From Rhodobacterales bacterium HTCC2255 (GTDB taxonomy: Bacteria > Pseudomonadota > Alphaproteobacteria > Rhodobacterales > Rhodobacteraceae): a stretch of DNA of 64,000 bases. Shown here one piece after another: positions 7,302-9,368 of this stretch. Position 1 is the first letter of the stretch, and each line of letters begins with the position of its first letter. The notes under the pieces were generated by a model. It searched no databases, had not been told where the DNA came from, and was given only the letters and a program-made list of their open reading frames with translations. The stretch covers positions 168,027 to 232,026 of the forward strand of contig DS022282.1 in NCBI GenBank assembly GCA_000153745.1, written 5' to 3'. A program made the position numbers and the translations under genes.

Positions 7302-7934
7302 TCATTGAGCTTCCTGAATTTCTTTAATTATATTATTCCAGACATCTGTAGTTTGAGCTCCCTGTACAACATATTCATTGGCAACAACAAATGCTGGAAC
7401 ACCTTGAATTCCTTTTTTCCTTGCGTCAGTGTCTCGAGCTTTTATGTCGTCTATATCTGCATCACTTTCTAATAATCGTCGTATGACTTCTTGATCCATT
7501 CCAGCAGCGTTTGCGATACGTGTAAGTACTGATTTTTCAGAGATATCACGACCTTCTTGAAAATATGACTTAAACAAACGGTCGACGATTATATTTTGTT
7601 TGCCTTCAATTCCTGCCCAATGAATTAATCTATGAGCATCAATTGTGTTTGGGGTTCTTTTAATCCCAGCAAAATTCATCAAAATTCCACTTTCATGAGC
7701 AGTTTTGTCTATATTACTATAAACTTTTATTGCTTCTTCCTGTCCACCAAACTTTGTTTCCAAGTATTCTCTTCTGTCCATACCTTTTTTTGGCATTGTT
7801 GGGTTTAATTGATACGGATGCCACTCAATTATAAAGTTATGGGTGGGATTTGCTTCTAAAGCACGATCTAATCGTGTTTTACCAATAAAACACCAAGGGC
7901 AAATTGGATCAGAAATTATATCAATTTTTGCCAT
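7302..7934 (-). CDS. DsbA family (FrnE-like) oxidoreductase
   Basis: Thioredoxin-fold disulfide oxidoreductase of the cytoplasmic FrnE/2-hydroxychromene-2-carboxylate isomerase-like branch, 210 residues and no signal peptide. The redox motif is CPWC at 12-15 (DPICPWCFIGK), a long helical insert follows, and the cis-proline loop is GVPAFVV near 178. The likely role is thiol-disulfide exchange or glutathione-linked chemistry in the cytoplasm; the exact substrate is unknown. It sits between the arsC-aquaporin pair (84-base gap) and the Bcr/CflA exporter (four-base gap), which suggests a stress or detoxification group read on the minus strand. Confidence 0.88.
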   Translation of the reverse strand: MAKIDIISDPICPWCFIGKTRLDRALEANPTHNFIIEWHPYQLNPTMPKKGMDRREYLETKFGGQEEAIKVYSNIDKTAHESGILMNFAGIKRTPNTIDAHRLIHWAGIEGKQNIIVDRLFKSYFQEGRDISEKSVLTRIANAAGMDQEVIRRLLESDADIDDIKARDTDARKKGIQGVPAFVVANEYVVQGAQTTDVWNNIIKEIQEAQ

Positions 7935-8018
7935 TTATGGGTTATCCTTTTAAATAATGATTTATATATAATTGAATAATAGTTTATAAATAATGCATAT
8001 TTTTAATCTGTTATCTAA

Positions 8019-8675
8019 TCACTCTTTTTCTGAAAATATATATTTTACAAGTATTAAAGCAACTAACATTCCAATAAACTGGCATGAAATAAACATGATA
8101 ATATTTGAAGGGTTAATGCCAGCGAATGTGTCTGAAAGTGATCTTGCTAAAGTGACAGCAGGATTAGCAAAACTTGTAGAAGCAGTAAACCAATATGCTG
8201 ATGTAATATAAAACCCAACAAGTGCAGGTATTGCATCTGTGCGTAGTTTCAATCCACCAAAAATTACGAGTATTAACCCAAATGTTGCTATAATTTCGGA
8301 GAAACCTTGCGATGCACCTTGCCTTAGCTTAGAAGAAATCTGAAATATATCTAGCTCAAACATACCGTGGGCAATCAATACCCCTAAGCCTGCACCTAGA
8401 ATTTGCAAAATAATAAAAATTATCGCATCTTTAGCGGTAATTTTTTTTGCTATTAACATAGCTACAGTAACAGTTGGGTTGAAATGAGCTCCCGAAATTG
8501 GTCCAAAAATTGTTATTAAAACATATAAAATAGCACCTGTAGCAATGGTATTTCCAAGTAATGCAATAGCTGCATTTCCGTTTGCTAGGGTCTCTCCCAT
8601 TATTCCAGACCCAATTACAGTTGCTAAAAGTATAGTTGTACCTGTGAATTCAGATAAGTATGCACGCATATTCAT
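8019..8675 (-). CDS. MIP/aquaporin family channel, arsC partner
   Basis: Inner-membrane channel of the MIP family, 218 residues with six hydrophobic helices and two half-helix signatures: NPT at 66-68 (GAHFNPTVTVA) in place of the first NPA, and NPA at 171-173 followed by the selectivity arginine R178. Its start is one base after the arsC stop, so the two are translationally linked. In Sinorhizobium meliloti an aquaglyceroporin (AqpS) beside ArsC lets arsenite leave down its gradient, and the same pairing supports that role here by inference. No arsR, arsB or acr3 is adjacent. A general solute channel is the alternative. Confidence 0.82.
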   Translation of the reverse strand: MNMRAYLSEFTGTTILLATVIGSGIMGETLANGNAAIALLGNTIATGAILYVLITIFGPISGAHFNPTVTVAMLIAKKITAKDAIIFIILQILGAGLGVLIAHGMFELDIFQISSKLRQGASQGFSEIIATFGLILVIFGGLKLRTDAIPALVGFYITSAYWFTASTSFANPAVTLARSLSDTFAGINPSNIIMFISCQFIGMLVALILVKYIFSEKE

Positions 8676-8676
8676 T

Positions 8677-9156
8677 TTAAACTATCCTACTTATATTATT
8701 GATATTTTTTTGAAGCGTGTTTGTTTCCATATTCTCAAATTCAAGATCGAGAAATGCTTTTGCCCGTTTTTCTAGAATATTATAAACTTTAGAAAAAGCT
8801 ATTTCTTTTTCAGAGCTCGATCCCTTTATATAAGCAGGATCAGGGACACCCCAATGGGCTCTGAGAGGATTGCCAGGCCAAAATGGACATTCCTCGTCTC
8901 TAGCATTGCCACAAACGGTGATAACAATATCCATAGTTATTTCAGAATTCGTTGAAAAAGTTGTCCAAGATTTAGAACTAAATTTTTTTGTAATTCCCTT
9001 TTTCTTTAATAATTCTATCGAGTAAGGATTTACGGTGCCAATTGGTCTAGAGCCAGCTGAATATGCTTTTAAACGGCCTTTGCCAAGACAATTCAAAATG
9101 GCTTCTAGAAGTATAGATCGTGCAGAATTACCAGTGCAAAGTACAAGAATATTCAT
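8677..9156 (-). CDS. arsC: arsenate reductase, low-molecular-weight phosphatase type
   Basis: Cytoplasmic reductase of arsenate to arsenite in the LMW protein-tyrosine-phosphatase fold, 159 residues. The P-loop is CTGNSARS with C7 and R13. C82 (ITVCGNA) and C90 (EECPFWPG) complete the three-cysteine relay of thioredoxin-coupled ArsC enzymes, and the WGVPDPA general-acid loop sits near 102-108. A plain tyrosine phosphatase would not need C82 and C90, so arsenate reduction is favoured. It is the first gene of the minus-strand group with the aquaporin. Upstream lies the structured element ending in a terminator at 9222-9250, which could attenuate it. Confidence 0.88.
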   Translation of the reverse strand: MNILVLCTGNSARSILLEAILNCLGKGRLKAYSAGSRPIGTVNPYSIELLKKKGITKKFSSKSWTTFSTNSEITMDIVITVCGNARDEECPFWPGNPLRAHWGVPDPAYIKGSSSEKEIAFSKVYNILEKRAKAFLDLEFENMETNTLQKNINNISRIV

Positions 9157-9221: not shown

Positions 9222-9297
9222 AAAAAAAAGCGTCCTCATAAAGAGGACGCCAAGTATTGAGGCAGGTTTCATACAGGCAGAAACCTATCGAGCAGTA
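9222..9297 (-). ncRNA. candidate small RNA or attenuating leader with terminator
   Basis: Read on the minus strand, this segment forms two consecutive hairpins. The first has arms AGGTTTC/GAAACCT (9280-9286 and 9264-9270) with a nine-base pyrimidine-rich loop. The second is a perfect eight-base-pair stem, GCGTCCTC/GAGGACGC (9243-9250 and 9230-9237), with a five-base loop, followed directly by eight U residues: a textbook intrinsic terminator. A sigma70-like promoter lies just upstream (9303-9332). The predicted transcript is about 75 nt with no convincing ORF. It ends 65 bases before the arsC start, so it is either a free small RNA or a premature-termination leader for arsC-aquaporin. No known family was recognised. 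Confidence 0.65.
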
Positions 9298-9302
9298 CTA
9301 CG

Positions 9303-9332
9303 CTTATAAACTATAGCTATGTAATAGGCCAA
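9303..9332 (-). promoter_or_regulatory. promoter for the minus-strand small RNA/leader
   Basis: On the minus strand, -35 TTGGCC (9327-9332) and -10 TATAAG (9303-9308) are separated by 18 bases; transcription would begin near 9296. The -10 is close to consensus and the -35 moderate. It is back-to-back with the plus-strand promoter at 9341-9368. Confidence 0.5.
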
Positions 9333-9340
9333 GGAAAAAA

Positions 9341-9368
9341 TTGATATTTCACAAAAGGGGCTTACAAT
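9341..9368 (+). promoter_or_regulatory. promoter for the YejA-like gene
   Basis: TTGATA (9341-9346) and TACAAT (9363-9368) are separated by 16 bases, each five of six to the sigma70 consensus. A start near 9375 gives a leader of about 33 bases to the ATG at 9408, which supports that ATG over the upstream TTG at 9390. Confidence 0.6.

Follow-up and report, generated by a model that had tools for sequence, protein, structure and literature searches.

A very probable StsR orthologue in Rhodobacterales bacterium HTCC2255: a frozen small-RNA core and two matching elements in the mraZ/dcw leader

The closest described system is that of StsR (formerly RSs0827) in R. sphaeroides, a 72-nt Hfq-bound small RNA (sRNA) under the control of RpoHI/RpoHII, which is induced by stress and abundant in late stationary phase (PMC8307010). 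UpsM and the dcw 5′ UTR are its binding partners; StsR promotes the cleavage of UpsM by RNase E, lowers rpoE mRNA, and pairs with that mRNA 10 nt past the start codon (PMC8307010). The partner, UpsM, is a 206-nt RNA which arises from termination within the 268-nt mraZ leader; its terminator lies 84 nt upstream of mraZ, and long terminator-bearing mraZ leaders are described as exclusive to Rhodobacteraceae (PMC5089854). The StsR pairing and the drop in dcw mRNA are reported again in PMC8625941 and PMC11354728.

The locus analyzed here lies in a stretch of 64,000 nucleotides (the window) from the genome of Rhodobacterales bacterium HTCC2255. The gene of a very probably StsR-type sRNA occupies positions 9222..9296 on the minus strand and is 75 nt long. 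Its end is the T run, and its start is probably A9296, judging by the position of the −10 box and by the sharp onset of conservation at this base. Read from A9296, the order of elements is ACTGCTCGAT, AGGTTTC, TGCCTGTAT, GAAACCT, GCCTCAATACTT, and then a GC-rich hairpin and eight T residues down to 9222. The 5′ end ACTGCTCGAT (9287..9296, minus strand) carries at nt 2-8 the heptamer CTGCTCG, which complements CGAGCAG of the dcw leader, and nt 1-7 have a predicted unpaired probability of 0.9-1.0. Next comes the predicted 5′ hairpin (9264..9286, minus strand) with a 7-bp stem AGGTTTC/GAAACCT (arms 9286-9280 and 9270-9264) and the 9-nt loop TGCCTGTAT (9279-9271). The loop and the 3′ arm include the target-pairing segment TGCCTGTATGAAACC (9265..9279, minus strand), a perfect complement of the mraZ leader of the same genome. 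The conserved core ACTGCTCGATAGGTTTCTGCCTGTATGAAACCTGCCTCA (9258..9296, minus strand, 39 nt here), delimited by identity across the loci found with the search pattern given below, includes the segments ACTGCTCGATAGGTTTC and ACTGCTCGATAGGTTTCTTGCCTGTATGAAACCTGCCTCA. The unit is closed by an intrinsic terminator with an eight-T run (9222..9251, minus strand; stem 9251-9229, T run 9229-9222), whose helix covaries.

The folding energy of the 79-nt stretch 9222-9300 is −27.5 kcal/mol versus −13.5 ± 2.5 in 200 shuffles, none of which was as good (z −5.7). The initial annotation of this DNA had proposed a minus-strand promoter, a stem-loop and a terminator which together form a small RNA of about 75 nt, and a UGCCU motif repeated in loop and linker. 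All three elements were confirmed in the sequence, all on the minus strand; the motif is present twice, in the loop and at linker nt 33-37; and an independent RNA unit of about 75 nt (9296-9222, minus strand) is borne out by its own promoter, hairpin, terminator and conservation. Searches for tRNA, tmRNA and Rfam 15 families at their thresholds gave no match in the window.

The promoter has a −35 element CTTGG (9329..9333, minus strand), which places TTG at −36 to −34 from the probable start, and a −10 element TATAA (9304..9308, minus strand), with 20 bases between CTTGG (9333-9329) and TATAA (9308-9304). Both elements are recognized by sequence and conservation, the latter in 145 upstream regions. 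In these 145 distinct regions the conserved letters are TTGG near −35 and TATAA near −10 (T-35 in 99%, G-33 in 97%, T-12 and A-11 in 99%), while C-14 is found in 61% and T-13, which does not stand out, in 38%. In R. sphaeroides, TTG at −36 to −34 reportedly matters to both RpoH factors, and C-14/T-13 are enriched in RpoHII promoters (PMC3441632). TTG at −36 to −34 in the window and C-14 in 61% of the regions agree with the published RpoH logos, T-13 at 38% does not, and TTGG/TATAA also resembles sigma-70; by its letters the promoter is thus compatible with RpoH control, which it fits and does not prove. The generic sigma-70 scan of the window did not list it. In the genome of HTCC2255 there are two RpoH-like sigma genes that score under the NCBIfam cut-off, matches to ChrR-type anti-sigma proteins, and hfq in two copies, one each on contigs C1 and C2. 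The second hfq copy may belong to a plasmid or stem from contamination. A sigma-70-like site TTGATA-16-TACAAT (window 9341-9368, plus strand) is directed at the divergent solute-binding-protein gene; it starts 8 bases from the −35 element of the sRNA, and these divergent promoters nearly abut.

How widely is this RNA distributed among the relatives of HTCC2255? Matches at E 0.05 or better were detected in 388 of 394 sampled family genomes and 387 of 393 genera. Judged by E value, 383 of the 388 are strong and five are weak (G237, G307, G405, G406 and G461; E 0.015-0.04). With the 111-base stretch as query, all 61 same-family genomes of a 101-genome sample gave a match (in G008 a partial one only), and in other families 2 of 40 genomes did so, with E values of 0.05-0.07 that are no better than chance. 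A pattern of 21 fixed bases (AGGTTTC, one to three arbitrary letters, then CCTGTATGAAACCT) was found in at least 118 stretches of named genomes, with Ruegeria, Paracoccus, Sulfitobacter, Leisingera and Planktomarina among the matches listed. In 148 of 148 loci found with the pattern, a selection in which diverged copies cannot appear since each locus was chosen for containing it, the 10 bases before the pattern (ACTGCTCGAT) and the 6 bases after it (GCCTCA) are identical. The variable loop letters are TTG in 141 loci, TG, as in the window, in 6, and GTG in 1. These 148 loci include a few duplicates and correspond to 145 distinct stretches. Because arms, loop and flanks are all identical, the constraint appears to act on the sequence and not on the shape alone. 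Two Neomegalonema records (L058, L122) have the same core with different terminators; as this genus is placed in Neomegalonemataceae, order Rhodobacterales, the sRNA extends slightly beyond the family.

The sRNA length, judged by sequence, is 71-81 nt in 43 of 44 picked loci. These 43 sequences make up the alignment and the covariance model, L145 being left out as its end was not found, and both are offered as a resource for an sRNA which has no Rfam 15 match at threshold. The window sRNA, itself among the 43, scores 95.5 bits over the full model. Across the class, under stricter filters by which weak matches are lost, 10 of 289 genomes matched: 4 of the family (at least 95 bits) and 6 others (at most 33 bits). 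The six non-family matches (E 9e-5 to 1e-3 per genome) were rejected as terminator alignments with 0 of 5 core pieces. In the terminator helix, two-sided changes occur in 8 of 10 pairs, and the cells with such changes in the structure number 56 versus 14.6 ± 3.0 in shuffles. The columns of the 5′ stem are invariant in all 43, so that covariation neither supports nor contradicts the 5′ hairpin. Conservation in close relatives, the test which the initial annotation had set for itself, thus turned out in its favor: the RNA is kept, with covariation in the terminator and with the 5′ stem retained as identity rather than as covariation. A separate observation concerns a weak match to the model elsewhere in the same genome (G000:C1:1294664-1294719, L254), a hairpin with the loop ACTGCTCGT and a terminator, between a putative DNA-methyltransferase gene and a mutY-like gene. 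Similar hairpins are present in near relatives, with loop letters that are not conserved.

The best Rfam match of the 111-base stretch was RF00519 (E 0.012), and one may suppose that the RNA belongs, as a diverged form, to the MmgR (suhB, alphaR8) family of alphaproteobacteria, for which PMC12559287 mentions a characteristic 10-mer. However, the score is 20.9 bits against a cut-off of 41, most of the match is due to the terminator, the 5′ stem is unmatched, and the consensus UUUcCUCCCU is absent. We therefore ruled out membership in RF00519 on the sub-threshold score and on the missing 5′ stem and consensus stretch, and consider even a divergent kinship of this kind extremely improbable.

The initial annotation had allowed for a second role, in which the element acts in cis as an attenuator or leader of arsC-aquaporin. 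The distance it gave is correct: the arsC ATG (9156) lies 65 nt beyond the T run, on the same strand, and 16 further loci have arsC in this adjacent position. Nevertheless, this amounts to just 17 of the 137 loci whose downstream flank is 500 nt or longer (arsC being recognized as Pfam LMWPc); the remaining 120 have no detected arsC downstream while core, promoter and terminator are kept, and in 10 loci arsC is found upstream instead, more than 1.5 kb away. The conserved neighbor stands on the other side. It is the divergent gene of a solute-binding protein of family 5 (PF00496; 9390..11204, plus strand), which we regard as a conserved landmark and do not propose as a target, and which is the immediate upstream neighbor in 136 of the 143 loci where the upstream flank is 400 nt or longer. 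Six loci with an upstream flank of 1500 nt or more have no solute-binding-protein gene, and the sRNA is still present. As arsC synteny is rare and the solute-binding-protein gene can be missing, the sRNA is an independent gene, and the conserved unit consists of the core with its own promoter and terminator. A cis role by termination or read-through before arsC is thus very unlikely. What stands of the earlier proposal is the small RNA and its size of about 75 nt; its alternative of a cis-acting attenuator falls, and with it a misleading link to arsenic. The arsC-like, aquaporin-like and DsbA-like genes (window 7302-9156) form a cluster near the sRNA, which is directly downstream in near relatives of the window and, in some other genera, upstream, beyond the solute-binding-protein gene.

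The evidence for a partner in trans came from the genome itself. A blastn search with the sRNA gave a 15-nt match at C1:1956323-1956337, one of three equal next-best matches. Like matches occurred in seven more genomes, six of which share the 12-mer CCTGTATGAAAC. In the loci L036 and L037 the match precedes mraZ and is on the strand opposite to it, and a putative rsmH follows mraZ. Such a position means that the mRNA leader carries the complement, GGTTTCATACAGGCA. In the mraZ leader of HTCC2255 the 15-nt perfect complement of the sRNA loop and 3′ arm is situated 171-185 nt upstream of the start codon, and a strong terminator hairpin has the start of its stem about 81 nt upstream of mraZ.

The mraZ loci were then re-selected by Pfam search in 61 relatives, with further stretches taken by coordinates, a procedure which avoids choosing loci by the sRNA match itself. 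Of 37 family genomes, 31 yielded the gene, the exceptions being G008, G011, G013, G019, G026 and G030. Two leaders were left out, L212 (G036), where mraZ was not located by its motif, and L239 (G001), with a leader of 118 nt, so that 29 usable family leaders remained. As controls served 19 genomes of other families with mraZ, represented by 16 loci; three of these (L200, L213, L224) had no located mraZ, and 13 were left.

In 23 of the 29 family leaders the longest exact complement of the sRNA is 14-18 nt and always falls in the same place. When G-U pairs are allowed, a helix of 15-18 bp forms at this place in 26 of 29; in L236, L238 and L243 the helix of at least 15 bp is kept after substitutions which leave G-U pairs. 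By comparison, the best of the 13 other-family leaders reach 9 nt in exact pairing and 11 bp once G-U pairs count, none attaining 12 bp, and letter-shuffled leaders have a maximum of 9-13 nt per leader with a mean of about 6.7. The three exceptions in the family are L210 and L229, which keep 11 bp only, no better than the best control, and L207 (G010), with a one-base deletion in the conserved site and a listed 12-bp helix which lies elsewhere. Joint folding of the sRNA with the leader of the same genome gains −20.8 kcal/mol versus −7.9 ± 3.0 for 100 shuffled leaders (best −18.1).

In the leader alignment the pairing element forms a conserved island, followed by CGAGCAGACA and then by the terminator. 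The sequence CGAGCAGAC, which contains CGAGCAG, the complement of sRNA nt 2-8, is present in 26 of 29 family leaders versus 0 of 13 others, and GAGCAGA stays largely single-stranded in the fold predicted for the HTCC2255 leader. The predicted joint structure includes the 15-bp helix and lacks pairing of the 5′ end; that the sRNA 5′ end joins the leader pairing we infer, therefore, from its conservation. The terminator arm of the same leader (L036:3429-3470) holds ATCGAGCAGT, whose 10 nt complement nt 1-10 of the sRNA, and the sRNA could pair with the UpsM-like terminator itself. Pairing to the terminator arm is given no weight as a general feature, as a second copy of CGAGCAG exists in 6 of 29 leaders only. 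Pairing with the leader gives nt 9-17 and nt 34-39 (GCCTCA) no role beyond the stem, and the identity of GCCTCA is not explained by it.

Taken together, these data make us highly confident that the window sRNA is the local StsR orthologue and acts in trans, the match to StsR being made by published partner, promoter, size and conservation and not by the StsR sequence. Alternatively, the window RNA could be an undescribed sRNA of its own, spread through the family and likewise pairing with the dcw leader, and StsR would be another gene. An identification by features leaves some room for this alternative, as does the search for an rpoE site: in 28 rpoE genes of family genomes (28 of 30 loci, L177 and L180 having no located rpoE) the duplexes were scattered with no consistent site, although by a crude method which allowed large loops and ignored accessibility. 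On the other hand, size, RpoH-compatible own promoter and UpsM partner all agree with StsR, and two RNAs with one partner would be a less simple reading when these three features already fit. We consider the existence of such a second RNA improbable, and retain StsR. With the RpoE fragment of PDB 2q1z, taken as a marker for R. sphaeroides, matches were obtained in 10 of 13 chosen genomes (best 79% identity), and none at E 1e-45 in the 394 family genomes, a search that included no known positive. The letters of the core and of its antisense were not found in the main texts of the literature searched. The earlier sRNA catalogues of Paracoccus denitrificans (PMC5107571) and Ruegeria pomeroyi (PMC4809877) may already include this RNA.

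What was obtained here is the gene with its conservation, a pair of conserved sites in the leader that complement the sRNA, and, in the same genome, genes of RpoH-like factors and of Hfq. By analogy with R. sphaeroides, action of the same type, with induction, UpsM pairing, RNase E cleavage and an effect on growth, probably takes place in the window organism too. An RpoH-type sigma factor would transcribe the sRNA from its own promoter under stress and in stationary phase, and the RNA would act in trans, probably bound by Hfq. Its exposed loop TGCCTGTAT would contact ATACAGGCA, which is part of UpsM as well as of the long mraZ/dcw 5′ leader, and the pairing would extend through the 3′ arm to 15-18 bp, opening the sRNA hairpin. 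The free 5′ end CTGCTCG may then pair with CGAGCAG in a bulge of the next predicted hairpin of the leader. Remodeled in this way, the leader would be exposed to RNase E, and the expression of division and cell-wall genes would go down when growth should stop.

A broader proposal we put forward tentatively and with slightly less than even confidence: StsR may be a brake on growth which is present almost throughout Rhodobacteraceae and their nearest relatives and which can scarcely change. Its core of some 40 nt, detected in 387 of the 393 genera sampled and without a difference among the loci inspected, would be frozen by two pairings, of the loop and 3′ arm with one site and of the 5′ end with the bulge of the next hairpin, and sRNA and leader would form a conserved two-part RNA switch by which stress is coupled to division. 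The reading as StsR in itself puts the StsR-UpsM brake, known from R. sphaeroides, into a relative with a genome of 2.3 Mb and into almost all sampled genera of a very large bacterial family, with two exact conserved pairing sites named.

Among known systems, the MmgR/alphaR8/suhB family (RF00519) resembles the window RNA in that its sRNAs are short, alphaproteobacterial, and built of a 5′ hairpin and a GC-rich terminator. UpsM and the dcw 5′ UTR are a target and not a counterpart of this RNA; HTCC2255 has a similar mraZ leader with a terminator, from which a like transcript probably arises. StsR shares with the window RNA its nature as an orphan sRNA, its size (72 nt there, about 75 nt here), an RpoH-compatible own promoter, and the mraZ/dcw leader (UpsM) as partner. 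It differs in belonging to another species, and its induction, cleavage and growth effect are known for R. sphaeroides. The window RNA would accordingly represent a known kind of regulator, trans-acting by all signs and very probably StsR, whose interest lies in the frozen core and in the two leader elements which match it.
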